From Granulosicoccaceae bacterium (lineage in GTDB: Bacteria > Pseudomonadota > Gammaproteobacteria > Granulosicoccales > Granulosicoccaceae): a stretch of 64,000 bases of DNA. The translations under genes were made by a program, and so were the position numbers. This document shows positions 46,989 to 64,000 of the stretch, one piece after another. The DNA lies in the NCBI GenBank assembly GCA_020629835.1, contig JAHDCO010000004.1:62001-126000 (forward strand). Reading direction: 5' to 3'. The notes beneath the pieces were generated by a model. The model was not told the DNA's origin. It ran no database searches and saw only the letters and a program-made list of their open reading frames with translations. Numbering within the stretch: position 1 is the stretch's first letter; every line of letters starts with the position of its first letter.

Positions 46989-47012
46989 CCATGGCCAAAT
47001 CAAAACAGAAAT

Positions 47013-47456: not shown

Positions 47457-47692
47457 CTGCAGGTCTCCTGGTTGGAGACCGGATAATACGGTTGTACAGA
47501 TCCACTCAATAGACACTTGAAAGATTGCATCGCTAGCCGTGTAATATCGTTAACGCTGATTGGCAGGCTGTAGGTGTCACCGTCGTCTGCAGGGTTTTGA
47601 CTGCTTGCAATAATTACAGGAGCAAGACACTTCCTGTGCTTGCACCCGTAACCTATTCCCTTCCAAAGAATATCCAAAAAGGCACCTACATT

Positions 47693-47962
47693 ATGGAAAC
47701 AGTCAAAGTACAGGAACAAACCGATGCTGCGAAGGAAGCCGCAGAAAAGGTAAACGCGACGTTATCCGACGTCAGTAACCGGATTGAAAACGCTTCGGCC
47801 GAAGCTGCCCTGAATGCAGAGATCATGGCTGAAGAGGCGCAAAAAAAAGCAGCCGACACAATCAAAACCGTTGAGCGATATGTTCAGGAAAAACCATTGC
47901 AAGCTGCCGGCATTGTCTTCGCTGCAGGCATATTAACAGCTGTACTCTTACGCAAAAAGTAG
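47693..47962 (+). CDS. DUF883 / ElaB-YqjD-like membrane-anchored protein
   Basis: 89 residues. A long amphipathic alanine-rich helix (KEAAEKVNATLSDVSNRIEN, ALNAEIMAEEAQKKAADTIK) is followed by VQEKPLQAAGIVFAAGILTA and a basic LLRKK end. In E. coli relatives the C-terminal helix anchors the protein in the inner membrane and the N-terminal part contacts ribosomes in stationary phase. A paralogue-like gene with the same C-terminal pattern lies at 63143-63436. Confidence 0.87.
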   Translation: METVKVQEQTDAAKEAAEKVNATLSDVSNRIENASAEAALNAEIMAEEAQKKAADTIKTVERYVQEKPLQAAGIVFAAGILTAVLLRKK

Positions 47963-47976
47963 TGTTTATTTGGTCT

Positions 47977-48001
47977 GGGTGGTCGCGTAAGGCGACCACC
48001 C
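47977..48001. terminator. 10-bp stem-loop between convergent genes
   Basis: GGGTGGTCGC (47977-47986) pairs perfectly with GCGACCACCC (47992-48001) around GTAAG, between the DUF883 gene and the convergent response-regulator gene. The flanks are poor in T, so this is a candidate bidirectional terminator. Confidence 0.65.
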
Positions 48002-48013
48002 TTATAAGCAGTT

Positions 48014-49441
48014 CTACTGTACAGCCTTCAGTCGGTTATACAGCGTTTTAAGACTGACACCCAAAAGCTTCGATGCTTTTTGCTTGTTGCCGTTCACCGA
48101 TTCCAACGTTGCAAACATCAGTTTGCGCTCTAAATCCCAGAAACTTTCTCCCACAAAACTGTTGATTGCTGAATCAGCCGTGGATTGAAGGTTAGGAAGC
48201 AGCCGGGAATTCATAACCATTTCTTCACCATCCTCTGTTGCCGTGTAGGAGGTAAGCAACACGTTTTTGAACTCGGTGAAGTTACCTGGCCATGCGTATT
48301 TTTCCAGACATTGTTTAAGTTCGGCGGATACGGATTTTTCCGAACCAAACAGGTGATTCATTTCAGCAACTGCCACGTCAATCAATGAGCTGATATCGCC
48401 ACCGCGCTCTCTTAAAGGCGGCACAGCAATCTCGTTGCGAGCCAGTAAGTAATACAATTCGGGTAACAATCTTCCGCTGTTCAAAGCGGTCTCGGCAGGT
48501 TCTCTTAATACTGCCAGAATTACCAAAGCAGACTTCGAGGCATTCAACGCTCCATTAGGTCGATACTGTCCCGTTCTCAGGTAATCCAGTATTGCCGATT
48601 GCAAGTGCTTAGGTAGGTGCGTAAGGTCGTCCAAAAGCAACGAACCTTTCCCCGCTCTTTGAAAGTACCCTTCCTCAATGTTTGCCTCAGTTTTTGTGTG
48701 ATTCGCTTCAGAGGGTGCTTGCCCAAAAAATCGGGTTGTCGCCAACGCATCGTTCTCTACACCGCAGTTTACATAAATAAGCGGTTGATCAGAATACCGA
48801 TGCTTGTGCACCAATGAGGCGATCTCTGGTTTTAGTACACCGGGTTCGCCGGTCACCAGCGTGTGCATGAACGTCGATCTTGCCGCACTTTTAATCGAAG
48901 ATCTCAAAACACAGCTTTCCTTAGAATCTCCGTTCAGGCCGATGACTCGTGACGGCATCTCGAACATTTCATCATAGTAGTGAATGCGTTGCCTGCTTTC
49001 TGCGCGAGTAATTCGGTTTAACGACCCAATGAGTTCCTGAGCACTGACGGGTTTCTGTAAATAATCGAAAGCGCCCGCCCGCAAACAGTCCAGTGTCGTG
49101 TCCATGTTTTGAGAGCCGGTCACTACAATGATATTCCTGACGTTGTATTCGCCCAGCGTTTGTATGAGACTAACTCCACCTCCATCTGGTAAACCAAGAT
49201 CGACTAAAGCGATGCTCGGAGGAGAAATCCTGACGGCCTCTTGCGCTTCACTAATGGAATAGCAAGCTGATGCGTTATACCCCGCCCGCTGGATGATCTT
49301 GCACAGTAAGTCTGCGGTATCCCGATTGTCTTCAACGACTAAAATTGAATGAGAAGCCCGAGTATCAGATGGTGTTTTCCGCTGATTTTGTTTGCTTTGA
49401 ACACGACCGGTCTGTGGGGTAACCTCGATTGAGGAAATCAT
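48014..49441 (-). CDS. NtrC-like response regulator with degenerate AAA domain (paralogue 1)
   Basis: 475 residues. REC domain (~32-150; phospho-Asp in IALVDLGLPDG, Lys in DYLQKPVS), then an NtrC-type AAA-like domain (~165-405) and a Fis-type helix-turn-helix (KASKLLGVSLKTLYNRLKAV). The Walker A equivalent is TGEPGVLKPE, the Walker B equivalent LLLDDL, and there is no GAFTGA loop: that region reads FGQAPSEANHTKTEANIEEG. Sigma-54 activation is therefore unlikely; it probably acts as a sigma-70-type regulator or scaffold. Eleven bases downstream of a second paralogue on the same strand. Confidence 0.88.
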   Translation of the reverse strand: MISSIEVTPQTGRVQSKQNQRKTPSDTRASHSILVVEDNRDTADLLCKIIQRAGYNASACYSISEAQEAVRISPPSIALVDLGLPDGGGVSLIQTLGEYNVRNIIVVTGSQNMDTTLDCLRAGAFDYLQKPVSAQELIGSLNRITRAESRQRIHYYDEMFEMPSRVIGLNGDSKESCVLRSSIKSAARSTFMHTLVTGEPGVLKPEIASLVHKHRYSDQPLIYVNCGVENDALATTRFFGQAPSEANHTKTEANIEEGYFQRAGKGSLLLDDLTHLPKHLQSAILDYLRTGQYRPNGALNASKSALVILAVLREPAETALNSGRLLPELYYLLARNEIAVPPLRERGGDISSLIDVAVAEMNHLFGSEKSVSAELKQCLEKYAWPGNFTEFKNVLLTSYTATEDGEEMVMNSRLLPNLQSTADSAINSFVGESFWDLERKLMFATLESVNGNKQKASKLLGVSLKTLYNRLKAVQ

Positions 49442-49452
49442 TAAAACATCCT

Positions 49453-50793
49453 TTATTGGTAGGCGTTAATGCGGTTGTATAAGGTTTTTAAACTGATACC
49501 CAGCATTTTGGCGGTCGCTCGTTTGTCGCCGGCATGATGGTCCAAAGTGGCCAGAAGCAGCTGTTTTTCCAGCTGCCAAAACGAAGTCCCCACCAATTGG
49601 TCGATATCACGTACCTGCTCATCTTCTTGAGGAGCGTTGGTGAGTAAATGGGTAATTTCCGATTCGTTTTCGGCCATATCCGCGGCTGCTGTATCGAGTG
49701 CCATAGATAGCTCCAGGACGTTGTTAGGCCAACTGTGTTTAGCGATTAGATCTTCCGCCTCGGCAGAGAGCTTGATCGCTCTGTCATGCTTTTGCGATAA
49801 CACCTGACAGTAATATCGAGAAAATCGAATGGCATCGTCGATACACTGCCGTAAGGCAGGAACTCGGAGGGTGTATTGGGCCAGGTGAAAATACAGATCT
49901 GACCGGAGCGATTCGGATTCTAAAATATTGGTGGATTGTTCCTGACAGATGCTCACGGTGGCGACTGATACCCCAATTCCGTTTCGGCCATTCACACGTC
50001 GAAATCGTCCGGTTTTCATGAAAGACAGTAGTCTCGATTGTAGGGACGGGTGTAGCTCGGTAATGTCGTCGATGACCAAGGTGCCTCCTGCGGCCTGTTC
50101 CAGATAGCCTTTGTGCAGGCAGTCGCCGGTTTCGGGGTCCTCCAGGCCAAATAAACGTTCAGTTACTCGAGCATCATTTTCTGCAGCGCAGTTCATTCGC
50201 ACCAGTGGCCCACCTCGGCGACTGCGTTCGTGGATAAGTTCGGCAACCGAAAACTTTTGTGTTCCGCTTTCGCCCTCGATCAAAACATGACTGGTTGGGT
50301 GGGATGCAACCCGACCGATCATGATTTTTAGTTGCTGCAACACTGGCGAGTGCCCCACTTCAACCCAAGACGTGATTTCGTTGCTACTTGGGTCGTTAGC
50401 CGCTTCGTTGATGAGCTCGTTTTGCTGCGTGCGGGGTTGTATCGCACGCTTTAGCTGTGCAAGGTCCACGGGTTTTACGAGTACGTCCCTGGCTCTGCAC
50501 TTGATGCTTTTTATGACGGATTGTTGGGAAGTGTTACCGCTGATAACGATAAATCGGTCTTTTGTGGAATTGTTCAATTCCGCCATGAGGTCCAGCCCAT
50601 TTCCGTCGGGAAGGTCTATGTCTACCAGCATGAGTTTGGGTGCTTTTTCGAGGATAATCCGGCGCGCATCCGCGACGCGATGTGCGGTCGACACCTCATA
50701 GCCCTGTGACTGAAGCACTTGAGAGAACAGACCGGATAACGCCAAATCATCATCGAGTACGAGTGCAGAAGGCGGTTCGAATGGAGTAGCCAT
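49453..50793 (-). CDS. NtrC-like response regulator with degenerate AAA domain (paralogue 2)
   Basis: 446 residues: REC (phospho-Asp in LMLVDIDLPDGNG, Lys in VLVKPVD), AAA-like domain and Fis-type HTH (ATAKMLGISLKTLYNRINAY). Walker A is nearly normal but reads EGESGTQKF, Walker B is LVIDDI, and the GAFTGA segment is replaced by FGLEDPETGDCLHKGYLEQA. The layout and C-terminus LVGTSFWQLEKQLLLATLDH match paralogues 1 and 3. Cotranscribed with paralogue 1. Target genes unknown; neighbouring stress genes are candidates. Confidence 0.88.
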   Translation of the reverse strand: MATPFEPPSALVLDDDLALSGLFSQVLQSQGYEVSTAHRVADARRIILEKAPKLMLVDIDLPDGNGLDLMAELNNSTKDRFIVISGNTSQQSVIKSIKCRARDVLVKPVDLAQLKRAIQPRTQQNELINEAANDPSSNEITSWVEVGHSPVLQQLKIMIGRVASHPTSHVLIEGESGTQKFSVAELIHERSRRGGPLVRMNCAAENDARVTERLFGLEDPETGDCLHKGYLEQAAGGTLVIDDITELHPSLQSRLLSFMKTGRFRRVNGRNGIGVSVATVSICQEQSTNILESESLRSDLYFHLAQYTLRVPALRQCIDDAIRFSRYYCQVLSQKHDRAIKLSAEAEDLIAKHSWPNNVLELSMALDTAAADMAENESEITHLLTNAPQEDEQVRDIDQLVGTSFWQLEKQLLLATLDHHAGDKRATAKMLGISLKTLYNRINAYQ

Positions 50794-51056
50794 GGTGGAA
50801 GGGCCCTATGGAATGAGTCAGTTAGCCAATTTAGCGAGCTTAAAGTCGCATCAGAAACGCTGATATCAGGCAGGATAGTGTTGGCTTTCGGATGAATCTC
50901 CACGCTTGTCATTTTTACAACGACAGCGCCACTGAACCCTGTAAGGTCAAATACTCAAGCTCTACAGGGAAAATCCGCGCCCGTGATGGGGGCGGATCTA
51001 CTTAGCAAACAGGCATCAGAGAATGCACAGGATTTAAAGACAGCGAGTGCATTACT
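50794..51056. other. divergent promoter region with two dyads
   Basis: About 260 bp between paralogue 2 and the CheB gene. CCCTGTA (50937-50943) pairs with TACAGGG (50963-50969), and ATCCGC (50973-50978) with GCGGAT (50992-50997) plus an inner CCC/GGG. These could be operators or a structured leader of the cheB-like gene; no start or promoter can be fixed. Confidence 0.4.
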
Positions 51057-51671
51057 ATGAGCGAAGAGAAGCGACCACACGGCCAGATCATAATTATCGG
51101 AGCGTCCGCCGGAGGGCTCGAACCACTGCAGACTATCTTCAGCCAGCTGCCCGCTGATTTCTCTATCCCGATTGTTGTCGTACGCCACTCGCTGCCCTCC
51201 AGGCCCTCGTTGCTGACAGACGTACTTGGAGCCTCGAGTAATTTAGCGGTTCGTACCATCAAACACGACTCATTCATTACCCCAGCCGCCGTTCATGTTG
51301 TGCCCTCATCACACAACGTAGCTTTCAAGGCCGCCGAAGACGGCGAGATAAAGTTTGTGTTGGTCGAGCAGGAGCGTGAGCTGGGGCCCACACCGAACAT
51401 TGATTTGACCATTGTGTCTGCCGCTCAGCATTTTGGGAGCAATTGCACAGCCGTTATACTCAGTGGTTACTTGGATGACGGGACTGAAGGCGCTAAATTT
51501 TTGGCTAAAGTTGGCGGCACAACAATTGTGCAGTCGCCGGATGATGCGCAGCACGATTCCATGCCGCTAAACATTGTGTGGCGTGATTCTCCTGAACACA
51601 TTACCCATCAGCAACAGATCGCTAAATTGTTATTGGATCTGGAGCACCGAGCCGCACATTCTGCAGCGTGA
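51057..51671 (+). CDS. stand-alone CheB-type methylesterase domain
   Basis: 204 residues with no receiver domain. Catalytic features of CheB: IIIIGASAGGLEPLQTIFSQ (Ser), VVVRHSLPSRP (His, normally QH), VVPSSHNVAF and the aspartate in ILSGYLDDGTEGAKF. CheB removes methyl groups from chemoreceptor glutamates. No chemoreceptor gene is nearby; it directly precedes a giant kinase that has its own CheB domain and may be a partner of it. Confidence 0.87.
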   Translation: MSEEKRPHGQIIIIGASAGGLEPLQTIFSQLPADFSIPIVVVRHSLPSRPSLLTDVLGASSNLAVRTIKHDSFITPAAVHVVPSSHNVAFKAAEDGEIKFVLVEQERELGPTPNIDLTIVSAAQHFGSNCTAVILSGYLDDGTEGAKFLAKVGGTTIVQSPDDAQHDSMPLNIVWRDSPEHITHQQQIAKLLLDLEHRAAHSAA

Positions 51672-51727
51672 TCCGAGCTGCTATACGAACGAATAACGTT
51701 GTTAAAAGAATACTGTCATAGGTAACG

Positions 51728-54700
51728 ATGAAAAGAATTGTAGGAATCGGGGCTTCCGCCGGTGGATTGGAAGCATTAGAAGATCTGTTTGCCAACATGC
51801 CCGAAAAATCGGGCTACGCCTTCGTTATCGTGCAGCACTTATCGCCTGACTTCAAGAGCCATATGGATGAGCTCATTCGTCGGGTTACGAATATCCCTGT
51901 TCATGTTGCTACCGAGAATATGGAGGTTCATAAGGACAACATTTATCTGATCCCAGCCAAGAAGGTCATGGTGATATCCAACAATAAGTTGCATCTCACC
52001 GATCGGCCGCGTGAAGATGTTTTAACGCACCCCATCGATCAGTTTTTTCGTGCACTTGCCAACGATATGGGCAAAGATGCGGTGGCCATTGTTTTATCCG
52101 GCACGGGTAGTGATGGCTCGAGAGGGGTTCAGGCTATTGCTGCGGCGCATGGTTTGGTTATCAGCCAGGACGACACATCTGCCCGGTTCGATGGCATGCC
52201 GCTGAATGCGCAAGCTACTGGCTGTGTGCATGCGGTTATGGCGCCAGGGGAAATGCCCGAGGCACTCACGCTGTATCGGCAAAAATCTTTAACTCCTCGG
52301 CAGCTAAAAGCGGAAATTTCTTCAGACGACACAGCGGTATTGGCAACGATTTTTGACGCTGTAAAAAGTAAACGCGGCGTTGACTTCAGCAACTATAAAC
52401 CCAGCACGGTGGGTCGGCGGATTGAGCGTCGAATGGGACTTTTGCACATAGACGATATCGGTGAATACGCGCGCCGTGTTGAGGCCGATCCGCAAGAAGC
52501 TGAGGATCTGTACAAAGATCTTTTGATCGGTGTGACGCGATTTTTTCGGGATTCGGATGCGTTTAAAATTGTCGAAGACACTATCCTTCCGGACCTTATT
52601 GATCGAGCCCTGTCGACGAACACAATTCGAATATGGGTTGCCGGATGTGCGTCGGGTGAAGAAGTGTATTCCATCGCGATGATGTTGCATGAGCAGCTAC
52701 CCTCTTCCAGCGAAATCGAAGTAAAGATTTTTGCCACCGATATTCATCAAGGCTCGCTGGACACGGCAGCTCGAGGAATTTACCCTGAAGATGCGGTAAA
52801 GGAGCTGTCGGATGATCGCCGCGAACGGTATTTTCAGAAGAACAAGTTAGGCTGGCAGGTGTCGCCTGCGTTGCGCGACATGGTGGTCTTCGCCTCTCAC
52901 AATGTATTCAGCGATGCGCCCTTCACACAACTTGACTTGGTGTCGTGCAGAAACCTGTTGATCTACCTAAACCCGCAGGCTCAGAAAAAAGCCTTGTCGT
53001 TGTTTCACTTTGCGCTTAAGAGCGGCGGGTACCTGTTCTTAGGCCCCAGTGAAACCCCAGGTGAGATTGATGATGAATTTACGACGGTGGATGGGCGTCG
53101 GCGCATTTACCGAAAGCGTCGCGATGTGCGTTTGCCGCTGGACTCACGCATGCCGTTTCATGCGGGCACCACCGTTCCCCAAATGCCGCGTGGCTCCACA
53201 CGTAGGGCTACTGTTACAGACACTCGCCCTGATATGTCGTTGCTGGCCATATACGACCGTCTGCTCGATGAGTACATGCCCGCATCCATTCTGGTTGATG
53301 AAAGTTATCGAATTCTGCATACCTTTGGTGGCGCTCAGAAATACCTTGAATTTAAAGCCGGCCGGCTGGATGTGAGCGTTGTGGAGGTGATTGCGCCTGA
53401 ACTTAAAACAACGCTATCTGGTGCGCTGCAGCACACCATCAGAGAACAAAACGAAGTGCACTATACCTGTCAGATCAATGGGCAGGAGGATGGCTCTGAC
53501 GAACCCTATACGCTGCATATCATTGCAAAGCCGATTGTTGATCAACGTACGCATATTTTAAATATCCTGGTTACGTTGAGGCGTGAAGATCGCGTTATGG
53601 ATGCGAAAGCATCCGAACCGGAGGCTACCGTAGTCAGCGTTAACGAGATGGACAAAGCTCGTATCGCATCACTAGAAGCTGAGCTTAGGTACTCAAGAGA
53701 GAACCTGCAGGCCACGATTGAAGAACTGGAAACGTCCAATGAAGAGCTGCAAGCTGCGAATGAAGAAATGCTTGCCAGTAATGAAGAGCTAAACAGTACC
53801 AACGAAGAAATTCAGTCGGTTAACGAAGAACTGTTTACGGTAAATACTGAGCATCAGAAAAAGATCCATGAACTTTCGGTGGCAACCGATGACATGGACA
53901 ACCTGCTCAACCTGACAAAAGTGGGCGTAATCTTCATCGATGATGACTTGTGCATCCGTCGGTTTACGCCTGAAATTGGTAAGACGTTTAATTTGGTGAC
54001 ACATGATGTCGGTCGGCCAATCGACGGTTTCTTACATAATTTCAGAAAAGAGAACATTGACGACTCCATACGTTCGGTTATACACACGGGTTCGAAAATC
54101 GAACGTACGGTGTTTGATGAGCGCTCCAGACCCTTTTTGATGCGCATGTCGCCTTACAACCGCACAGAAGGTGCTTCTGGTGTGGTCATGTTTATCACTG
54201 ACATAAGCTCGGTCCTGAATACCGAAAATGATTTAGCGCTGCACCGTTACATGACTGAACAAGCCCGTGACGGTCAGGCACTGTTGGATCGAGAAGGTAA
54301 CTTCATTTACGTTAATCCTGCTTACGCCACGATGACAGGCTATGCGGTTGACGAGCTTTTAGAAATGAAAGTGTCAGACGTTGATCTGATACATGACAAA
54401 AGCTTGTACCGAGATGTGTTTGAGCGCAGCGCGGCGGATGACATCAGCATGTTCCCATCAAGGTTACGGCGTAAAACCGGTGAAATTGTTGAAACCGAAA
54501 TTACGGTAAATACGATCGAGTTACAGGGCACCCAGCACCTCTTTGCCGCGATACGCGACGTCACTCGGTACAAGGCCGCACGTCAGAGCCTTGCTAACAG
54601 TGAAAGTCTGGTCCAAACCTTGGTGGGGTCTGCTGCTATTGGAATTTTTGTTGTAAGCGACACCGGGATTCTTACCTACTGCAATCCAGAAATGCTGCGC

Positions 54701-56488
54701 TTACTCGGTTATGACACCAGCGCTAACTTCATTGGGGTGAACATACGTAGCGTTGTAAAAGCCGACTCTGAAGGGGCGTCAGAGTTTCTCGATAATATTG
54801 ATCAGCAGTTGTCTGTTCGTAATCGTCAGGTAGAGTTTGTTTGTGAAAACGGCGACAGCATACCTGTCGAGTACAACGCTGAGGCTATTCAATCTGATAA
54901 GGCGAATCCTGGATACGTTGTGTCTTTTGAAGATATCTCTCATCGCTTTGAATCGCAAAATGCGTTGGTTCAAGCCACCGCTCGTGCGGAGATGGCAAAT
55001 AAAGCCAAGAGCGAATTTCTGGCAAATATGAGTCACGAAATCAGAACCCCGTTGACTGCGATCATGGGCCATATCGACTTGATGCGAACCAACTTAAATA
55101 CCGAGGAAGAAATCGCTGGCGCGACAGCGATAAAACGTAACGCGATTCATTTACTCGACGTGGTCAACGACATACTTGACCTATCCAAAATCGAAAATAA
55201 CACATTAGAAATTGTTCATGAGAAAGTCTCAGTTCCTGAGCTCATCGCTGATCTTTACCAAATGATGTTAGTGCGAGTGGAAGAAAAGAATCTGTATTTT
55301 GATGTGAAAATGGATACACCAATTCCAGAGTTTATCGAGACAGACCGACTCAGATTGCGTCAAGTACTCATAAATCTTACTGCCAACGCAATCAAGTTCA
55401 CCCCTTCGGGTGGTGTAACGATTCGCTTAAGGCATTGGGTTGATCAACTCACCATTTCGGTGGCGGATACGGGTATAGGCATCCAGAAATCCTCGTTAGA
55501 AAATTTGTTCCAGCCGTTCGTTCGTGGTGGCACGCAGATTGTGGCGGAAGGCACCGGCCTCGGGCTGAGTATTTGCCGACGACTGATGGATCAAATGGAA
55601 GGAGAGATCTCGGTTACCAGTCAGCCTGGCAAAGGCAGTGTATTTTCAGTGACTTTGCCGGCTAAAAACGACCACGGGTCAAGGATGATTAATTCCATTA
55701 CGCTTGACACACATGAGGAATCAGAGCGTACTGACAAAGATGATAGCTTTGTATCGCTTAAAGGTAGCATTCTAATCGTTGAGGACGTTCCGGATATCGT
55801 GAACGTCATACGTTCACTGATGGAACAATCCGGGGCCACGGTATCCGTTGCAAACGACGGTGAAGAGGCGGTGAAAAAAGTGTTGGAAAACCCGTCGCTG
55901 TATGATTTGTTATTGATGGATGTGCAGATGCCCAATAAAGATGGACTAACTGCCGTACGTGAATTGCGGGAACAGGGTTACGACAAACCGATTATAGCGC
56001 TCACCGCTCAAGCCATGATTGGTGACTACCAACGATGCATTGAAGCCGGTTACACCGACTATATTTCCAAGCCCATCGATTTAAAGGCACTTACCAGTAA
56101 GATTCAGTTGTTTCTTCAACCGGATACGGTTAACACTAAAAAACTATTGTTTGTGGAAGATCATTTTGCAAGTGCAGAGGTGATGAAACGCATTGCGGTG
56201 CGGTCCGGGCAGTTGTCGGAGTTTGCATTGAAGGGGCAGGATGCGTTGGAGATTGCCCATTACTTCAATCCGGATATCTGTGTTATCGACATTAACCTCC
56301 CGGATATGACTGGACATGAGTTATTAAAAGCGTTTAAACAGATACCAGCGCTTTCGAATACCAAATTTGTCGCGCTAACCGGGCAGGAGCCAGAGAATGG
56401 CATGGAGCAATACATCAGGGCTGGCTTCGACGATGCTTTGCTCAAACCTGTGGACGCCGCATCATTGAGAAAGATATGGACAGAGTAA
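51728..56488 (+). CDS. CheB-CheR-PAS-histidine kinase-REC-REC hybrid sensor
   Basis: 1586 residues, no transmembrane segment. Order: CheB (~1-190; GIGASAGGLEAL, VQHLSPDF, LSGTGSDGSRG), CheR methyltransferase (~200-470; SAM motif WVAGCASGEEVYSIAMM, SCRNLLIYL), PAS-like region, a coiled coil with repeating NEEL units (~660-715), PAS domains (~720-1080), HisKA with SHEIRTPLTAI (His ~1102), HATPase (NLTANAIKF, EGTGLGLSICRRL), REC1 (Asp ~1396, LLLMDVQMPNKDG) and REC2 (Asp ~1519, ICVIDINLPDMTG). It is thought that the CheB/CheR parts modify the sensor or partners. Probably the hub of this signalling island. Confidence 0.92.
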   Translation: MKRIVGIGASAGGLEALEDLFANMPEKSGYAFVIVQHLSPDFKSHMDELIRRVTNIPVHVATENMEVHKDNIYLIPAKKVMVISNNKLHLTDRPREDVLTHPIDQFFRALANDMGKDAVAIVLSGTGSDGSRGVQAIAAAHGLVISQDDTSARFDGMPLNAQATGCVHAVMAPGEMPEALTLYRQKSLTPRQLKAEISSDDTAVLATIFDAVKSKRGVDFSNYKPSTVGRRIERRMGLLHIDDIGEYARRVEADPQEAEDLYKDLLIGVTRFFRDSDAFKIVEDTILPDLIDRALSTNTIRIWVAGCASGEEVYSIAMMLHEQLPSSSEIEVKIFATDIHQGSLDTAARGIYPEDAVKELSDDRRERYFQKNKLGWQVSPALRDMVVFASHNVFSDAPFTQLDLVSCRNLLIYLNPQAQKKALSLFHFALKSGGYLFLGPSETPGEIDDEFTTVDGRRRIYRKRRDVRLPLDSRMPFHAGTTVPQMPRGSTRRATVTDTRPDMSLLAIYDRLLDEYMPASILVDESYRILHTFGGAQKYLEFKAGRLDVSVVEVIAPELKTTLSGALQHTIREQNEVHYTCQINGQEDGSDEPYTLHIIAKPIVDQRTHILNILVTLRREDRVMDAKASEPEATVVSVNEMDKARIASLEAELRYSRENLQATIEELETSNEELQAANEEMLASNEELNSTNEEIQSVNEELFTVNTEHQKKIHELSVATDDMDNLLNLTKVGVIFIDDDLCIRRFTPEIGKTFNLVTHDVGRPIDGFLHNFRKENIDDSIRSVIHTGSKIERTVFDERSRPFLMRMSPYNRTEGASGVVMFITDISSVLNTENDLALHRYMTEQARDGQALLDREGNFIYVNPAYATMTGYAVDELLEMKVSDVDLIHDKSLYRDVFERSAADDISMFPSRLRRKTGEIVETEITVNTIELQGTQHLFAAIRDVTRYKAARQSLANSESLVQTLVGSAAIGIFVVSDTGILTYCNPEMLRLLGYDTSANFIGVNIRSVVKADSEGASEFLDNIDQQLSVRNRQVEFVCENGDSIPVEYNAEAIQSDKANPGYVVSFEDISHRFESQNALVQATARAEMANKAKSEFLANMSHEIRTPLTAIMGHIDLMRTNLNTEEEIAGATAIKRNAIHLLDVVNDILDLSKIENNTLEIVHEKVSVPELIADLYQMMLVRVEEKNLYFDVKMDTPIPEFIETDRLRLRQVLINLTANAIKFTPSGGVTIRLRHWVDQLTISVADTGIGIQKSSLENLFQPFVRGGTQIVAEGTGLGLSICRRLMDQMEGEISVTSQPGKGSVFSVTLPAKNDHGSRMINSITLDTHEESERTDKDDSFVSLKGSILIVEDVPDIVNVIRSLMEQSGATVSVANDGEEAVKKVLENPSLYDLLLMDVQMPNKDGLTAVRELREQGYDKPIIALTAQAMIGDYQRCIEAGYTDYISKPIDLKALTSKIQLFLQPDTVNTKKLLFVEDHFASAEVMKRIAVRSGQLSEFALKGQDALEIAHYFNPDICVIDINLPDMTGHELLKAFKQIPALSNTKFVALTGQEPENGMEQYIRAGFDDALLKPVDAASLRKIWTE

Positions 56489-56585
56489 ACTGCACAAGTG
56501 CTACAGCTGAAAATTTAGTTACGGTTCTGTTTGCATGTTTGGCTGGCGATGAGGACTTTATGGCGCGACCGAGGAAAATGCCGCG

Positions 56586-56783
56586 ATGAACGATTCAACC
56601 GAAATCTCATTGCAGGATAGATTGGATCAGCTGATGCACGATATACGCACACCGCTTCAAGCAGCCAAACTTCGAACTGAACTTCTGTTGTTGGACTGCA
56701 GCGATGGAGAATTGGAAGAACAGCTAAACGGAATACTTGATTCCATCGACGACGCCGTGAGCCTTGTTCAAAAGCATGATTAA
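56586..56783 (+). CDS. stand-alone histidine-phosphoacceptor (HisKA-only) mini-protein
   Basis: 65 residues that are almost entirely a kinase dimerisation/phosphoacceptor hairpin: LDQLMHDIRTPLQAAKLRTE with the phospho-His at residue 18, then a second helix LEEQLNGILDSIDDAVSLVQ. There is no ATPase domain and no remnant of one before the stop. GAGGAAAA precedes the ATG. The TPLQAA motif is shared with the kinase at 61825-63009. It could serve as an HPt-like relay or as a dimerisation inhibitor. Follows the giant kinase by 97 bp. Confidence 0.7.
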   Translation: MNDSTEISLQDRLDQLMHDIRTPLQAAKLRTELLLLDCSDGELEEQLNGILDSIDDAVSLVQKHD

Positions 56784-56805
56784 ATCTGATTGATCTTAAT
56801 AAGGA

Positions 56806-58149
56806 TCAATCGGGTAGTGCATTGAGCCGGTTGTACAGTGTTTTCAAGCTGATACCGAGGGTTTCTGCTGCCTTTGCTTTGTCGCCATGTACCGCGTCTA
56901 ACGTCAGAAGCATGAGGTGGTTTTCTACCTCTCGGAACGTCTTACCTACCAGTGAGTTCAAAGACTTTCGTTGTTCGGCAACCGAACTACTCAGTGCAAG
57001 GCGTTGCGCATCAATACAGACTGACGCTGTGGCACCAAAAAAACTTTGAGCCACAGCGTTCTCCAGTTCGGTTAGGTTGCCTGGCCACAGGTAATTTTCG
57101 ATTAAGTCGTCATCGATGGTGTCCAGAGATTTCCTCATCCCATGTCGCTTGTTCAGCTGAGTTACCGACAACTCCGCCATGGCAGTAATATCCGATCTCC
57201 GTTCTCGCAGAGCAGGCACATCAATTCGGATTACGGCGAGCGTATGGAAGCTCTCAGAATCCAAAGTGCCATCATCAATCGCCACTTGCCAATGCACCGG
57301 TATTGACAGAATCAACTGTGCGTTAGGCTCACCCTTGGAATGCGTGTTGGCTGCCTGTTCGTTTAGCACCTCAGCAAATACAGACTGCGCCACCTGCCCT
57401 AGTTTTGTAATGTCATCAATGAAAACGGTGCCGCCTGCGCCGGCTTCCAGCAGTTGCGCGATGTCTGTTCTGAGCTGCGCTACGTCGGCGGAACTTGCAG
57501 AAGTCTCAGCTTTCGCAAACAGTGAGGCGTGCGCATACAAGAATTGCCCGGTGCGCTTTGACAGTCTGTGTATTGCGACGGCTAGCCCTGCTTTGTCAGT
57601 CCCTGGTTCACCGTAGATCAAGCAACTATTCGTTGTCATGGCGATCCTGGCGGCCTTGGCTCTGAGCTCCTGAGCAGCCTGTGAATGCCCTTCCAGTACG
57701 AGGGTGGTTTCGCGCGATGGGACGACGCTGTAGCCAGGGGTCGCATTACTTGGTTCTGACGAGGCTGAAGCATCCATTGCGGCATTGATAAAAGGTTTTG
57801 ATAGGCTGCGCTTGAGTTGGTCCAAAGATACCGGCTTACTGAGAAAGTCGACCGCGTTTGCGCGGAAGCTATCGACCGCAGCGCTTTGGCTTTGGTTGCC
57901 TGTTATAACGATAAATCTCGGGGGTCGGTTGGCGCCTGTGGCGTACTGGGTGAGTATGTCCAGACCGTCACCATCAGGCAGGCCCAGATCCAGCAGCACC
58001 AGTTCAAAACTCGACTCTCCGAGGCTGTCCTTTGCCGCCTGGAATGTACTGACGCGTGTTGGTACGAACCCCATTGAAGCCATCACGCGGCAGTAGGCCT
58101 CAGCGGAAGCTGCGTCGTCCTCTACAACTAGGGCTTGTCGTTCCGTCAC
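56806..58149 (-). CDS. NtrC-like response regulator with degenerate AAA domain (paralogue 3)
   Basis: 447 residues with the same plan as paralogues 1 and 2: REC (LVLLDLGLPDGDG, DFLSKPVS), AAA-like domain and Fis-type HTH (AAETLGISLKTLYNRLNA). Walker A reads YGEPGTDKAG, Walker B VFIDDI; no GAFTGA motif, and the segment between contains alanine- and serine-rich sequence. VPALRERRSDITAMAEL preserves the sensor-side helix. Convergent with the HisKA-only gene 22 bp away. Likely a sigma-54-independent transcription factor of the island. Confidence 0.88.
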   Translation of the reverse strand: MTERQALVVEDDAASAEAYCRVMASMGFVPTRVSTFQAAKDSLGESSFELVLLDLGLPDGDGLDILTQYATGANRPPRFIVITGNQSQSAAVDSFRANAVDFLSKPVSLDQLKRSLSKPFINAAMDASASSEPSNATPGYSVVPSRETTLVLEGHSQAAQELRAKAARIAMTTNSCLIYGEPGTDKAGLAVAIHRLSKRTGQFLYAHASLFAKAETSASSADVAQLRTDIAQLLEAGAGGTVFIDDITKLGQVAQSVFAEVLNEQAANTHSKGEPNAQLILSIPVHWQVAIDDGTLDSESFHTLAVIRIDVPALRERRSDITAMAELSVTQLNKRHGMRKSLDTIDDDLIENYLWPGNLTELENAVAQSFFGATASVCIDAQRLALSSSVAEQRKSLNSLVGKTFREVENHLMLLTLDAVHGDKAKAAETLGISLKTLYNRLNALPD

Positions 58150-58300
58150 GTTTTAAGCTTCTGACTAATTTTGCGGTGCCGGTCTGGCGTAGTCGAGAGT
58201 ATTACACAAACAATTCTTGGTTTGTAGCTAGCACAATCCTGGAGTTTGGTAGGTTGGCAGCTCTGATTTTTGTGGCGTCAGCGTTGCAGGATTTTAAGGC

Positions 58301-59161
58301 TCATCGTTCCTGGTCTTGTGTGTCCAAAAATGCCAGGATTGCACTTCGAGTGTCATTTAGGAATGACAACGGTGTAGCAACCCCCGCCATGATGTCAGTA
58401 TGTCCGACATCCTTTAACAGCTCTAGAGTTGCAGGTACGTTGTTAGCGACCAGTGCCCTGTAGTATCGTCTTGAGTGCAGTACATCCACCCTATCGTCGC
58501 CGGTGCCGTGTATGAGCAGTGTTCTGGGGTGCGACAGCGTGATATTTCGAATGGGCTTAACGGAATCTGGATTTTCCACGTTTGGAAACACGTCGGCCAC
58601 TTCTTCCAATTCGATTGGCAAGTCGTACGGCCCAGAGATGCCTATTAAAGCCTTCACTGTACTGTCGTCCCGATAGTAGCGTGCTTTACTGGTTAACATT
58701 GCGGCAGCGTGCGCCCCTGACGAGTGCCCGATAAGGATGAATTCATTGGTGTTGGAGGTAATGCCTAAATTTTCGGTCTTTAGAAATTCTATGGCTAGCG
58801 CCACGTCGTCGATGATGGCCGGGTACTGAACCATGGGATACAGGCGGTAGTCTGGAATCACCACGGTGTAACCTTCTTCGGTCAGGGATTGTGCAACGAA
58901 TTCATAGTCGTCTTTAGAGCCCATACGCCAGGCTCCGCCATAAATAAATATCACCGTTTCGCCATTAGCGCCCTCAGTCGGTTCGTATATGTCGAGTTTT
59001 AATCGATCCAGAGGACCGAACGAGATGTCTTTACGCAACGAGTACGTGCTGTCGGTAGCCACCGCGTTAAGCACATCGACAGGTTTTATCACTTGGCAAG
59101 CGACTAAAACGGTGGTCACTACACCTAAGGAAACTAGAACGTTTACAAATTTTGATGGCAT
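58301..59161 (-). CDS. alpha/beta-hydrolase lipoprotein (BD-FAE/esterase-like)
   Basis: 286 residues from the ATG at 59161; an ATG at 59215 would add 18 basic residues. The shorter start gives a normal lipoprotein signal, MPSKFVNVLVSLG then LVAC with Cys22 as the lipidated residue. Hydrolase motifs: VIFIYGGAWRMGSKDDYEF (oxyanion loop), LIGHSSGAHAAAML (Ser), IHGTGDDRVDVLHSRRYY (Asp) and DVGHTDI (His). It is an envelope-bound esterase of unknown substrate. The segment 58150-58300 before paralogue 3 is non-coding. Confidence 0.82.
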   Translation of the reverse strand: MPSKFVNVLVSLGVVTTVLVACQVIKPVDVLNAVATDSTYSLRKDISFGPLDRLKLDIYEPTEGANGETVIFIYGGAWRMGSKDDYEFVAQSLTEEGYTVVIPDYRLYPMVQYPAIIDDVALAIEFLKTENLGITSNTNEFILIGHSSGAHAAAMLTSKARYYRDDSTVKALIGISGPYDLPIELEEVADVFPNVENPDSVKPIRNITLSHPRTLLIHGTGDDRVDVLHSRRYYRALVANNVPATLELLKDVGHTDIMAGVATPLSFLNDTRSAILAFLDTQDQER

Positions 59162-59264
59162 ATGTTGGCGCGTTTTGATTGCGGTTATTCGTCGTGATCG
59201 TGAAGCCGCAATCATTTGTTAACTGGGAATTAAACACGAACAACGAGTGGCTAAGCCGTTAAAA

Positions 59265-59299
59265 GCTGCCCGTAGTCGGGAGGATGAACCACGGGCAGC
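59265..59299 (-). terminator. terminator of the BON-domain gene
   Basis: GCTGCCCGT (59265-59273) pairs with ACGGGCAGC (59291-59299). On the minus strand the stem is followed by TTTTAA, as in a rho-independent terminator, 22 bases after the BON gene stop. Confidence 0.7.
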
Positions 59300-59320
59300 G
59301 TTGTTGCTTACTTAAAGCGT

Positions 59321-59596
59321 TTATACGCCTTGCAAAGTACTGGTTACTTTTGTTACCCCTTCCATGCCATTCACCGTGTTCTCGATACGTATTATTGCGC
59401 CTGATTCCACGTCCCCTGATAGGAAAACGTGACCATCCTCCTGAACATCAACTTTTACCAGTTCCGGGCCGTACCCCATTTCTTTCAGCGCGGTATCGAT
59501 TTTTTCTTTTAAACCCATGGTTCCTGCGATAGCACCGGCAACGAGTGTTGCGGAAAGTGCTAATGAAGTTAATGCGACTTTTAATACCTTAATCAT
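59321..59596 (-). CDS. secreted BON-domain protein
   Basis: 91 residues: signal peptide (LKVALTSLALSATLVAGAIA) and one BON domain (KEKIDTALKEMGYGPELVKV, VDVQEDGHVFLSGDVESGAI, MEGVTKVTSTLQ). BON domains bind phospholipid; OsmY-like proteins are periplasmic and induced by osmotic or stationary stress. One of two BON proteins in this cluster. Confidence 0.85.
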   Translation of the reverse strand: MIKVLKVALTSLALSATLVAGAIAGTMGLKEKIDTALKEMGYGPELVKVDVQEDGHVFLSGDVESGAIIRIENTVNGMEGVTKVTSTLQGV

Positions 59597-60220
59597 TTAG
59601 AAGTACCTTATCTAATCTTATCCAGTGGGACATCCACAACCTGCAGAGTACGTGGCACAAGCAGCAGAATGTTGGCCATTGCAAAACCTTCGATTTACCT
59701 GTCTTATTTACAAATTACCGTGTGTATTGAATAAGGTTTATGTGGGTTTCTTCATGATTTAGGTGGCATAGCACATAGCTAAACCCTGGAAAAAATGGTG
59801 TACCTCTATTCCTGAATTGAAACTGGTTCAATTACGGGATGAATATAAATATCGATTGGCTAAGTTCGGTCTTGATGTGGACTTAACTGATGTTGGATAT
59901 CGCTAAAACCCGATGTTTTTAAGGTGTTTTAGCGTAAAAAGTACAAAGCCAGTGGTCGTATCAATTGCCCTACTTATACTTGCTCGCGACGTACAGGTAT
60001 CTGTTTAAATTTTCGAAAAATTCGAACAATGCCAAGTAGTTGTTGATGCTTAAAAACGATTTCATATCGAAGAGCTATCAAAGTGGCGGTGCATATAGAG
60101 GTCAGTGGTAACCTAGATAACTTTTGTTTTTTTATTTTGGAGTTATGAAAGATTATCGCACGAAAATTTATACAGACTCACGCTACAACAGACACAAATT
60201 AATCAATAAAGGAGTCATAA
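59597..60220. other. 624 bp intergenic region before csbD
   Basis: AT-rich and without a gene I can support. It carries the BON gene promoter (minus) and the csbD promoter (plus). An ATG at 60145 with GGAG upstream opens a 36-codon frame that overlaps the csbD start; it could be a translated leader but has no other support. Confidence 0.4.
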
Positions 60221-60421
60221 ATGAATTGGGATCAAGTAAAAGGAAAGTGGGATGAAATGCAAGGCAAAGCCAAAGAACAGTGGGGCGACCTAACTGACGA
60301 TGACGTAGCTGAAGCCGCAGGCCAGCGCGAACAGCTCACTGCCAAAATCCAACAGCGGTATGGCAAGACCAAAGAAGAAGCTGAGCGTGAAGTGGACGAG
60401 TGGGTTGCGCAATTCAATTAA
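60221..60421 (+). CDS. csbD: CsbD-like stress protein
   Basis: 66 residues with the whole CsbD/YjbJ signature: MNWDQVKGKWDEMQGKAKEQ, WGDLTDDDVAEAAGQREQL and KIQQRYGKTKEEAEREVDEW. AAAGGAG precedes the ATG. Such small hydrophilic proteins are abundant in stationary and osmotic stress; function is unproven. Terminator directly downstream. Confidence 0.95.
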   Translation: MNWDQVKGKWDEMQGKAKEQWGDLTDDDVAEAAGQREQLTAKIQQRYGKTKEEAEREVDEWVAQFN

Positions 60422-60441
60422 CGCTTTGGGAGAGAGCGGTA

Positions 60442-60466
60442 GGCACCGTTGAGCGGTGCCTTTTTC
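60442..60466 (+). terminator. rho-independent terminator after csbD
   Basis: GGCACCG (60442-60448) pairs with CGGTGCC (60454-60460), loop TTGAG, then TTTTTCT. Confidence 0.92.
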
Positions 60467-60520
60467 TCTCTCTCTTATTCTCTGCTTCTTTTGACTATTC
60501 ATGACAGGCTGGTTCAGACA

Positions 60521-60883
60521 ATGACGACGTTTTATTTATCCACCCCGCACCCTGTGCCCCCGGTGAATCCGACCCCATTACCAGGTGGTCCCGATAGGCC
60601 TGATAATCCGGATAGTCCCAACCCGGAAGCGCCCAAACCTCCGACCCCGCCCACTCCACCGATCACAACGCCGCCATCACCAGCGCCATCGGGACCTGAG
60701 AATCCGAAGCTTCCACCTGAATTGCCACCTGAACCCATCCAACCGGAGCAACCGACTGGGCCTGAAGTGCATGCGTTCGGTGGTGGCTATCCGACAAAGC
60801 CACCGGTGTGCGAAACGTCGCAGCGATCCGCGTGCTTGGCTCATCTTTTTCTTTGCACGACTCCGCTGTCAGCCTCAGGCTGA
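60521..60883 (+). CDS. small proline-rich protein
   Basis: 120 residues from the ATG at 60521. After MTTFYLSTPHPVPPVNPTPL it is dominated by Pro with Asp/Asn/Glu (GPDRPDNPDSPNPEAPKPPT, ELPPEPIQPEQPTGPE), then a short C-terminal part with three cysteines. No signal peptide or membrane helix; probably extended and disordered. No clear ribosome-binding site, so translation is uncertain. A hairpin GTCAGCC-TCA-GGCTGAC spans its stop (60868-60884). I do not recognise the family. Confidence 0.5.
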   Translation: MTTFYLSTPHPVPPVNPTPLPGGPDRPDNPDSPNPEAPKPPTPPTPPITTPPSPAPSGPENPKLPPELPPEPIQPEQPTGPEVHAFGGGYPTKPPVCETSQRSACLAHLFLCTTPLSASG

Positions 60884-60904
60884 CCCGAAAAAGTTGCCCA
60901 TACT

Positions 60905-61264
60905 ATGTCCCTTACGATCATGATCGTGGAAGACTATCAACCGTTATTGCAGGCCATGGTTCAAGCTCTTGAACCATTGGCAGAGTCGATCGTGCAAATC
61001 GACAACCCGGTCAATGCGTTGGAGTCAATTGAGAAAAATACTCCGGATATGTTAATCACCGACTGGGACCTCCAGAGTCATCTCAACGGTGGCGATATGG
61101 CGAGGTTTGCACTGCAAACCTGTGCTGATATAAAGGTCGTCATCATATCCGGCAAAGAGCTGTCGAAAATTATGGCTGCAACGGACGATGTTGATGTATT
61201 CAGGTACGTGGCCAAGCCGTTTGCATTAAAAGAACTGCGCCAGCTTGTGAAAGAATGCCAGTAA
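60905..61264 (+). CDS. single-domain response regulator (REC only)
   Basis: 119 residues, one receiver domain: IMIVEDYQPLLQAMVQALE (acid pair), phospho-Asp in MLITDWDLQS (~56), Ser/Thr-type switch in IISGKELS, and RYVAKPFALKEL (Lys). No output domain, so it may act as a phosphate shuttle or sink like CheY or Spo0F. The kinases and HisKA-only protein nearby are possible partners. Confidence 0.88.
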   Translation: MSLTIMIVEDYQPLLQAMVQALEPLAESIVQIDNPVNALESIEKNTPDMLITDWDLQSHLNGGDMARFALQTCADIKVVIISGKELSKIMAATDDVDVFRYVAKPFALKELRQLVKECQ

Positions 61265-61365
61265 TCAGGCGTGTACAGAATCTGTGTTTTCCTTATATCA
61301 CCACAAGTTGTGAACCTTCCCTGGTTCACGACTTGTGCCGAATGGTTCACTGCGACTCGTATGAT

Positions 61366-61677
61366 CTACGACTTGACCACCAATGCGTTTTTTACCTTAG
61401 CAACGCCATTGACATCAGCCGCGATTCGTTCTGCGGCGATGCGCTCCGCTTCGCTATCAACGAAACCGCTTAGGATAACCAAATCCTTATAGGTCTCTAC
61501 ATCAATTTGTAATGCGCTGGTTTCATCAGCCAGAGCCAATTCGGTTTTCACTTTGGCGGTAATTGCCGCACTGTCGATGTATTCACCTGTGCTTAAATTG
61601 TTTCCGCTTCCCGCACATGCAGTCAGTGAGACTGCAAAAACTAAAGCCATAAAAATTTTTGCGCTTGTAAGTTTCAT
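61366..61677 (-). CDS. BON-domain lipoprotein
   Basis: 103 residues from the ATG at 61677 (GAGGATCC just upstream); a longer frame lacks a signal. Lipoprotein signal MKLTSAKIFMALVFAVSLTA with lipobox LTAC. One BON domain: DSAAITAKVKTELALADETS, LQIDVETYKDLVILSGFVDS and ERIAADVNGVAKVKNALVV. Outer-envelope stress protein, second BON member of the cluster. Confidence 0.9.
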   Translation of the reverse strand: MKLTSAKIFMALVFAVSLTACAGSGNNLSTGEYIDSAAITAKVKTELALADETSALQIDVETYKDLVILSGFVDSEAERIAAERIAADVNGVAKVKNALVVKS

Positions 61678-61824
61678 TGGATCCTCTTCTGTTAAATCGA
61701 AATAATGTACAAGTGATGCACTTACACTGCACATGCTAGAAGAGCCGGTCTGGATTCGGTAGCGACTTATAAAAAGTACTGGTGAATTGGAAATCGTTAC
61801 ATTACTAGAAATGTCTGGGAACGA

Positions 61825-63009
61825 TCAATTCCTGGGAAACAACAACGTAATACGCGTCCCTTCTCCGACGTTGGACGTCAGTTCAATCGTACCGCCAAGA
61901 TCCGTAATGGCCTCTTTCACCAGGTACAGGCCCATGCCGTACCCGGTAACGTTCAGCTGTGCGTCCTGGGATTCATGCGCGCGAACACGGAGTTTGAATA
62001 CTTCGTTCAGCATGTCTTCCTCTATTCCCAAGCCGTTATCCTCAATCACTATCCCTGCTTGGTCATCCTGATGATTCGTTGCCCGCTTGATCTGTATTTT
62101 TCGAGAGTCTTTCTTTGGGTCCCGGTACTTAACCGCGTTGCTAATCAGGTTTGTCATGATGAGCCTCAGCTTGGCTGTTTCGGTATTGATCTCCCCTAGA
62201 TCCTCATCGCAGTGTATGTCCACATCCCGTAGGTTGAGCGTATCGCTTAACTGACCAATAACGTCTTGAACCAAATCGTGAACGTTGACCACTTGCCGGT
62301 TAGGCACGTCCTGCATCGGGTGATCAGAATTAGCAATCAAGTTTTCAATATTGACCAATAATGAAGACGCGTTCTGAATCGATGTTTGTATCATCAGAAG
62401 TTCTTTAGCATCGTCCGCACTGGCGTCTTTGTTTTCCATCAACAGCTCCATATTGAGCTGCGCCGCTTGTAAGGGTGTTTTTAGCTCGTGCGATATGAAC
62501 TGGTTAAACGACACGATCTTATCGGTTTGATCTTTGATCGTGGTCATGTACTTATCCACGAATGAATCTACTGTAGATTGCAGAATGGTGCGAACAATTC
62601 TTGCTACCGCGGCCATTAGCCCGATGCTTTGTTTGGCACTAACGGGTTTGTCGTAAAGCTCCGATTGTTTGACAATAAATTCTTCAAGTACCTCGGACAA
62701 AAGATCGTACTCGCGTAGCAACTGATTGACACTGGCTTTCTGTTGATGGCGCAGAGTTCCCAATTGAGCGGCTTTTCGCTCTAGCAATGAGTTTGTGAGT
62801 GCCAAATCTTCGTCATTGTTTTCCAGGATCTCTGCCAGCTCGTCGAGCATGGCGGGAATATGATCAAGATATTGTTCGGTGGGGAAAATATCCCGCGTGT
62901 CTTCATTAACTACATTCTGCAGTTGAACCAGCCAGTGGTCAGCTAGGAGCTGAGAATGTTGTGAGATACAGGAAGCAATGAACAGCCGGTAGTCGTCGTC
63001 AGTTTTCAT
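61825..63009 (-). CDS. soluble histidine kinase with RsbRD-like helical sensor
   Basis: 394 residues. N-terminal ~150 all-helical region (RLFIASCISQHSQLLADHWL, LGTLRHQQKASVNQLLREYD) resembles RsbR/RsbRD N-terminal globin-like domains, then HisKA with FISHELKTPLQAAQLNMELL (His ~171) and a HATPase domain (MTNLISNAVKYRD, IEDNGLGIEE, GYGMGLYLVKEAITDLGG). No membrane segment, so the signal is cytoplasmic. Its H-box is close to that of the 65-residue HisKA-only protein. Confidence 0.85.
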   Translation of the reverse strand: MKTDDDYRLFIASCISQHSQLLADHWLVQLQNVVNEDTRDIFPTEQYLDHIPAMLDELAEILENNDEDLALTNSLLERKAAQLGTLRHQQKASVNQLLREYDLLSEVLEEFIVKQSELYDKPVSAKQSIGLMAAVARIVRTILQSTVDSFVDKYMTTIKDQTDKIVSFNQFISHELKTPLQAAQLNMELLMENKDASADDAKELLMIQTSIQNASSLLVNIENLIANSDHPMQDVPNRQVVNVHDLVQDVIGQLSDTLNLRDVDIHCDEDLGEINTETAKLRLIMTNLISNAVKYRDPKKDSRKIQIKRATNHQDDQAGIVIEDNGLGIEEDMLNEVFKLRVRAHESQDAQLNVTGYGMGLYLVKEAITDLGGTIELTSNVGEGTRITLLFPRN

Positions 63010-63142
63010 AATTCAGCGTGGTATGTCGCTTGGGTTTCAGGGTGGTGCTTGGCGATAACTCGCAATTCCTCATTGCAAATATTACACGCTGCTCTCGAAT
63101 TCCGGTGATCTGGAATAGATTAAATGAAAACTGGAGGTAGTA

Positions 63143-63436
63143 ATGTTGGACGTTGAATTGGCCAAGATGGACCCCGAATTAGCAAGAAAAGTTGGAAATC
63201 GCCTACACGACGCCGTCGATCGATTCGAGGGTGTCCTGGCCGATGCAGAAACTGAACTGCGTAAAACAAGAAATCAAGCGGCACTTAACGTGAACACGGC
63301 CACATCGGATGCGCAGAATAAGCTCATGGCAAGAGCGGAAAGGGTCGACAACTTCCTTAACGAAAAGCCCGCCCAAGCTGCCGGTATAGCGTTTGCCGCG
63401 GGTGTTCTGACTGCGCTGTGGTTGAAACGAGGCTAG
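63143..63436 (+). CDS. DUF883 / ElaB-like membrane-anchored protein (second copy)
   Basis: 97 residues with a GGAGG ribosome-binding site. Charged helix (VGNRLHDAVDRFEGVLADAE, TELRKTRNQAALNVNTATSD), then NEKPAQAAGIAFAAGVLTAL and a basic WLKRG end. The C-terminal pattern KP-QAAGI-FAAG-LTA is the same as in 47693-47962, though the N-terminal parts differ. First gene of a small operon with the holin-X-like protein. Confidence 0.85.
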   Translation: MLDVELAKMDPELARKVGNRLHDAVDRFEGVLADAETELRKTRNQAALNVNTATSDAQNKLMARAERVDNFLNEKPAQAAGIAFAAGVLTALWLKRG

Positions 63437-63438
63437 CC

Positions 63439-63825
63439 GTGAACGCCAACCAACCCGCTCAACCACCGGTAGAAGAGACTACGGCGTTTTCTGCGGCGAG
63501 TGAGTTTGTGCTGAGCCACATCGATTTGGTGAAGGACTCGTCTAGAGTGGTCGCATCTGATGCGCGACTCGCGGTGGCAAGTGTCGTCCAGGTGCTGTTG
63601 CTGGGAACATTGGCCCTACTTCTCCTGTTCAGTTTATGGTGTTTGGTGGTCTTCTCTTTAGCTCAAACTGTGCTATGGCTGGGACTCCCGGTACCATTGA
63701 TGTTACTCACCTTAGTAATACTGCATCTGTTAGCAATTGCAGCGCTTGCCCTGGCAATCCGCTCTACGTTCGCTGGCCTTCGCTTTCAAAACACCCAAGG
63801 TCTTTTCCAAAAGACCGCGGAGTAA
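63439..63825 (+). CDS. holin-X / DUF1469-like two-helix membrane protein
   Basis: 128 residues from a GTG at 63439 (GAGG six bases upstream), two bases after the preceding stop. A cytoplasmic N-terminus (FVLSHIDLVKDSSRVVASDA) is followed by two hydrophobic segments (SVVQVLLLGTLALLLLFSLW and PVPLMLLTLVILHLLAIAAL). This is the usual partner of ElaB/DUF883 proteins (YqjE-like). Function unknown. Confidence 0.8.
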   Translation: MNANQPAQPPVEETTAFSAASEFVLSHIDLVKDSSRVVASDARLAVASVVQVLLLGTLALLLLFSLWCLVVFSLAQTVLWLGLPVPLMLLTLVILHLLAIAALALAIRSTFAGLRFQNTQGLFQKTAE

Positions 63826-63831
63826 TACTTG

Positions 63832-64000
63832 ATGTTTCGCACACCGATTACAAAAGACGCCATTGAACGGTGCGAACAACACCGTAGCAAGGCCGTGATA
63901 TCCAAAGCACGCTCGTCCCAAGCAACTCAGCGCATGAAAGACTTAGCGCCGGTATTGGCAACGATTCGGGCTGTTCCGGTTTGGTCATTTGCCATCGGCT
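63832..64000 (+). CDS. partial gene, third member of the ElaB-holin-X operon
   Basis: Open frame from the ATG at 63832 to the right edge, 56 residues seen. It begins MFRTPITKDAIERCEQHRSK and continues through a basic region (KARSSQATQRMKDLAPVL) into a possible membrane segment at the edge (AVPVWSFAIG). By position it may be a YqjK-like protein; not identifiable from the fragment. Confidence 0.6.
   Translation, partial: MFRTPITKDAIERCEQHRSKAVISKARSSQATQRMKDLAPVLATIRAVPVWSFAIG

Follow-up and report, generated by a model that had tools for sequence, protein, structure and literature searches.

A gene for a bare DHp hairpin in a marine Granulosicoccus bacterium and its ATPase-less relatives

Gene content of the locus

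We analyzed a stretch of 64 000 nt (the window) from a marine Granulosicoccus bacterium, focusing on a small open reading frame (the ORF) downstream of a giant hybrid kinase. The features of the locus, with the basis of each assignment in brackets, are:

48014–49441, minus strand: NtrC-like response regulator, same module as 56806–58149 (relatives)
49453–50793, minus strand: NtrC-like response regulator, same module as 56806–58149 (Pfam, relatives)
51057–51671, plus strand: CheB methylesterase-like protein, encoded separately 5′ of the giant kinase (Pfam)
51728–56488, plus strand: giant hybrid kinase CheB-CheR-PAS-HisKA-HATPase-REC-REC, 1586 aa, 97 nt upstream of the ORF (Pfam)
56571–56575, plus strand: GAGGA, possible ribosome-binding site, 10 nt 5′ of the ATG of the ORF (sequence)
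56586–56783, plus strand: the ORF, a HisKA/DHp-only protein of 65 aa (ATG start, Pfam, AlphaFold2, codon usage)
56784–56815, no strand assigned: stem of 14 pairs with a 4-nt loop between the convergent genes, terminator-like without a T-run (folding)
56806–58149, minus strand: NtrC-like response regulator (REC-AAA-Fis HTH), convergent with the ORF (Pfam, relatives)
60905–61264, plus strand: single-domain receiver; similar receivers recur in the modules of relatives (Pfam, relatives)
61825–63009, minus strand: RsbRD_N-HisKA-HATPase kinase, the complete kinase closest to the ORF hairpin (Pfam, search, trees)

We observed that the region 45000–64000 is a stress-type island of hemerythrin-like, DUF883-like, CsbD-like and BON proteins and YqjE-like genes, together with the three NtrC-like regulators, the free receiver and two kinases; parts of this island recur in several Granulosicoccaceae. 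The separate CheB-like methylesterase (51057–51671) directly precedes the CheB-CheR kinase, and in genome G021 (L057:3008–10685) two large CheB-CheR proteins of 1046 and 1499 aa are convergent and 37 nt apart. None of the three NtrC-like regulators (48014–49441, 49453–50793 and 56806–58149) has a recognizable GAFTGA loop and their Walker A motifs are altered (e.g. GEPGTDK, GESGTQK); for this reason, judging from sequence, conventional sigma54 activation by these proteins seems improbable.

No sigma70-type promoter was matched within 56400–56900, which includes the 97-nt gap between the giant kinase and the ORF, and a classical terminator was not found after the ORF. The stem at 56784–56815 begins at the first base past the stop of the ORF (−17 kcal/mol, z −3.1, 0 of 200 shuffles). 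Since no promoter was matched in the gap and the hairpin and the convergent regulator follow, the simplest reading is that the ORF would be the final gene of the giant-kinase transcription unit, and it is probably co-transcribed with this kinase. The coding sequence stops with the DHp hairpin, 23 nt short of where the convergent gene ends, and no lost ATPase domain can be located 3′ of the ORF. A frame of 37 codons (56476–56589) begins inside the 3′ end of the giant kinase and closes with an ATGA that overlaps the start codon of the ORF, to which it could be translationally coupled; considered as part of the ORF gene, this frame has a coding score of 0.05.

A real gene encoding a bare DHp hairpin

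The ORF starts with ATG and encodes 65 residues (MNDSTEISLQDRLDQLMHDIRTPLQAAKLRTELLLLDCSDGELEEQLNGILDSIDDAVSLVQKHD), as a preliminary description of this DNA had given it. HisKA (Pfam PF00512) matches residues 13–62 with 33 bits (cut-off 26.9, E 6.1e-8), covering profile positions 6–55 of 66, and within this match we found the complete H-box of that description, H18-D19-x-x-T22-P23 (HDIRTP), with H18 as candidate phosphoacceptor. The ORF stops ~11 profile positions short of the HisKA end, helix 2 is correspondingly short and the DLS(K/R)xEAG linker toward the ATPase is missing as well. The earlier claim that the protein contains nothing but HisKA also held, as neither a second Pfam domain (Pfam scan, E ≤ 1) nor a match to an NCBIfam model was found. 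HATPase_c is absent, so that the protein does not count as a histidine kinase, and the Hpt profile (PF01627) was neither matched in the Pfam scan at E ≤ 1 nor did the ORF appear in a whole-genome Hpt search.

AlphaFold2, supplied with seven aligned sequences, predicted helices at residues 2–36 and 41–63 with a mean pLDDT of 91, in agreement with the two-helix hairpin proposed beforehand. The closest solved hairpin, the DHp of GacS (7n0e_A), superposes on this model with 0.8 Å over 54 columns, and the VIA-align rows were mostly unrelated helical hairpins. Because helical hairpins resemble many proteins, the HisKA assignment rests on sequence and not on the fold. The codon log-odds of the ORF is 0.195 per codon, compared to a mean of 0.150 (sd 0.088) for the real genes in the window, and exceeds that of all 155 shadow ORFs. 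The ORF is a real gene, and it encodes a bare DHp hairpin.

ATPase-less orphan relatives in Granulosicoccus

Proteins of ~205 aa with a HisKA hairpin at the C-terminus and no ATPase (hereafter orphans) were found in six species (G006, G011, G013, G018, G023 and G024; proteins L051–L056), and a seventh, divergent orphan of 190 aa with the box H-E-L-T-S-P occurs in G002. The genomes of the relatives are mostly metagenome assemblies, and ORF calls in them were mechanical, some starts (e.g. L053, L055) probably being too far upstream. Along the HisKA profile the orphans break off where the ORF does, and they have the TPLQ motif in common with it. Between the three closest species pN is ~0.05 for the hairpin versus ~0.33 for the N-terminal part, with synonymous sites saturated, and TLQHEIRTPLQGALL is invariant in all six ~205-aa orphans, which together indicate that an ATPase-less DHp is kept under strong purifying selection in the genus. 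Within the orphans, constraint is strongest in helix 1, which carries the H-box and the regulator-facing side, and this conservation favours a receiver-directed role, which the ORF may share.

The N-terminus of the orphans is predicted to be globin-like, of the stressosome type, with 3pmd, 3pmc and 3zta as best Foldseek rows (probability 0.99–1.00, E-values 0.16–0.54). These best rows for L051–L056 correspond to a stressosome protein and to sporulation inhibitors that are stand-alone sensor domains. Against the RsbRD_N kinases, the orphan profile is aligned from about position 50 through the end, with the pairwise profile comparison covering the C-terminal 89 columns only. The orphans adjoin DUF883/YqjE/YqjK genes, and the spot beside these genes is occupied by the orphan in orphan genomes and by the kinase in G015, G026, G030 and the window.

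Only one genome is known to carry the 65-aa form, which has no close orthologue: none was found in a pattern scan of 84,980 genomes, in 57 relatives or in 369 genomes of the class searched with an alignment profile (E ≤ 1e-9 outside the genus). The preliminary description had raised the conservation of HisKA-only ORFs after CheB-CheR kinases, and this expectation was not borne out, as no such ORF lies beside the nearest homologues of the giant kinase in G011, G024 and G023; the homologue in G018 is uninformative, since its contig ends 86 nt past the kinase. Both the restriction to one genome and a long branch in the trees (see below) would fit a drifting remnant of a longer orphan or kinase that has lost its N-terminal and ATPase parts. 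The RsbRD_N N-terminal part is indeed missing, and the MATE locus of the ORF's own genome contains no orphan gene, which is consistent with loss or relocation. However, the H-box is intact, the hairpin is confidently predicted, the codon usage is gene-like, a possible ribosome-binding site precedes the gene and the stem follows directly after the stop; moreover, the strongly constrained orphans end at the same HisKA point. We therefore regard a vestigial fragment as unlikely. Because it groups with ATPase-less relatives on which selection acts in sister species, the ORF is probably functional, as a relay, a phosphatase or an antagonist component, and not debris.

Ancestry of the hairpin

The TPLQAA motif that the preliminary description saw in both the ORF and the 61825–63009 kinase is present in both, and apart from the ORF itself this kinase is the genome's best match (44% over 46 aa). 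In a tree of 47 rows the ORF groups with the orphans (support 99/99), and this group is nested in the HisKA clade of the RsbRD_N-HisKA-HATPase kinases (100/99); a smaller tree gives the same grouping of ORF and orphans (99/99). In AU tests a grouping of the ORF with the full RsbRD_N kinases was compatible with the data (p 0.18). What these comparisons show firmly is that the ORF is related to the RsbRD_N-kinase class and not to the giant kinase. The exact place of the ORF in the tree is uncertain, because the trees rest on ~65 columns and the branch of the ORF is long (2.3–2.8). The group of ORF and orphans appears to derive from a globin-sensor (RsbRD_N) HisKA-HATPase stress kinase, represented here by 61825–63009.

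A fresh truncation of a longer kinase, which had been named beforehand as one of the findings that would refute the proposed relay, was considered for the giant kinase and rejected: its HisKA lies elsewhere in the tree, and a joint grouping with the ORF was rejected by the AU test (p 0.015). Decay of the ORF copy itself is possible.

The common DHp lineage of the ORF and the 61825–63009 kinase also bears on a reading in which the ORF would pair with the DHp of this (or another) kinase and displace its homodimer interface, so that kinase autophosphorylation would be blocked or tuned and the histidine chemistry of the ORF itself would not be needed. There is a precedent in RetS, which inhibits GacS through a heterodimeric DHp–DHp interface (PMC12148439), and it is the GacS DHp that provides the solved hairpin nearest to the ORF. 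An intact RsbRD_N kinase is retained in three of the six species with ~205-aa orphans (G006, G013 and G023), but at the thresholds used G024, G011 and G018 yielded no full kinase of this class. The orphans conserve the H-box and the regulator-facing side most, neither of which would be needed for pure dimerization. An antagonist or adaptor of this kind seems to us somewhat unlikely.

Candidate donors and targets

Searching the genome (4.34 Mb, 97% complete), we found 39 HisKA matches, of which the ORF is the only one outside a frame of at least 388 aa. All 45 HATPase_c matches lie inside frames of at least 388 aa, the shortest being 388 aa, and no stand-alone HATPase or ATPase-only partner was found in this 97%-complete genome. 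The phosphate donor for the ORF would therefore be a receiver or a full kinase. This inventory also bears on a split histidine kinase, in which the ORF would supply the phosphoacceptor and an ATPase-only partner would phosphorylate it, in the way that CheA4 phosphorylates CheA3. A HisKA without HATPase that keeps H-D/E-x-x-N/T is the pattern proposed for split bifunctional kinases (PMC3591291), but with every HATPase_c match in a long frame a trans-acting full kinase would be required, and we consider this arrangement very improbable. The giant hybrid kinase itself has no Hpt according to Pfam. Ordinary Hpt domains occur in the genome, including one in a frame of 139 aa, so that the ORF would not be the only relay available.

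The preliminary description had linked the ORF to the three regulators, and a conserved module connects the related kinase class with such regulators: orthologues of the 61825 kinase adjoin NtrC-like regulators of the types seen in the window in five relatives (G014, G030, G028, G026 and G015), and in G014, G030 and G028 the regulator beside the RsbRD_N kinase is of the 56806–58149 type. The orthologues also lie near single receivers and DUF883/YqjE/YqjK-type, CsbD or BON genes, and in G002 a distance of 3.2 kb separates the divergent orphan from an NtrC-like regulator. Given the regulators beside the kinase orthologues and near the G002 orphan, this DHp lineage is likely to act on regulators of the NtrC-like class.

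We further compared the residues at the positions corresponding to T250, L254 and A255 of EnvZ, which are specificity-setting contact positions (PMC2991266), counting from the histidine in each HisKA domain. The triads are Q/L/R in the ORF, Q/L/N in the 61825 kinase, Q/L/T in the orphans and T/G/H in the giant kinase. Thus, Q25 and L29 of the ORF match the 61825 kinase and not the giant kinase (T, G), and among 30 HisKA domains read from this genome, that of the 61825 kinase is the only one sharing Q at the first contact position. Phosphorylation of the ORF by the giant kinase, presumably via its receiver domains, is possible; the evidence for it is the adjacency of the two genes.

Discussion

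Our preferred reading, to which we give a probability of roughly 0.45, is a DHp protein working as a dimer, which either passes phosphoryl groups to and from NtrC-like receivers or dephosphorylates them. Two hairpins would pair into a four-helix bundle, and His18 would accept a phosphoryl group from a phosphorylated receiver of the probably co-transcribed giant kinase or, alternatively, from the ATPase domain of a full kinase acting in trans. In EnvZ, the HisKA and ATPase domains stay active on separate polypeptides (PMC3591291). The phosphoryl group on His18 may then be exchanged with the NtrC-like regulators of the island, with both the direction and the particular target being presumptive. 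The H-D-x-x-T motif, cited as a kinase/phosphatase motif (PMC3591291), could also allow the ORF to dephosphorylate these regulators. Tentatively, and with some doubt, we further suggest that the ORF is a natural bare HisKA hairpin that acts as a dimeric histidine phosphotransferase in place of Hpt and forms the end point of a series of ATPase loss within the genus, from a full kinase over a sensor with a DHp to a DHp alone.

HisKA proteins without HATPase have been catalogued, with proposed roles as phosphoacceptor, in phosphotransfer or as phosphatase (PMC5847659, PMC3591291, PMC1183210), and are labelled ‘possible incomplete histidine kinase’ (P2CS) or ‘HisKA, no HATPase’ (PMC5847659). They make up 1556 of 42417 HisKA proteins (3.66%), 711 of them keeping H-E/D-x-x-N/T (PMC3591291); the archaeal survey proposes roles for them and reports no test of these (PMC5847659). 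Members of this class share with the ORF the C-terminal HisKA, the conserved histidine and the missing ATPase. However, the described members carry N-terminal PAS, GAF or other sensors, whereas the ORF is a bare hairpin. The same holds for the ~205-aa orphans, which agree with the ORF in end point, TPLQ, lack of ATPase and clade (99/99) but have the globin-like N-terminal domain and lie beside DUF883/YqjE/YqjK genes and not beside a CheB-CheR kinase. Domain A of EnvZ and the DHp of GacS are HisKA hairpins of ~60–67 residues able to fold and function when detached from the ATPase domain, but these are laboratory fragments while the ORF is a natural gene. Hpt (PF01627) would perform the same relay step with a different helical bundle. 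Spo0B and ChpT carry out histidine phosphotransfer via a kinase-like dimeric DHp bundle, which for the ORF is a prediction. Spo0B keeps a degenerate ATPase-like C-terminal domain. ChpT is likewise described as keeping one (PMC3433190). In the ORF no such domain follows the DHp and the protein ends with the hairpin.

We found no papers on Granulosicoccus kinases or natural DHp-only proteins in the open-access literature. The HATPase-less HisKA class was already known; the novelty lies in a form reduced to the hairpin and in a series, within one genus, in which the ATPase is lost under constraint. If the ORF works, it would be among the smallest natural two-component signalling proteins and would show a kinase becoming a phosphotransfer protein through the shedding of domains. 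HATPase-less HisKA proteins are a little-studied class, and the Granulosicoccus series of intact kinase, ATPase-less orphan and bare hairpin makes their function directly testable.
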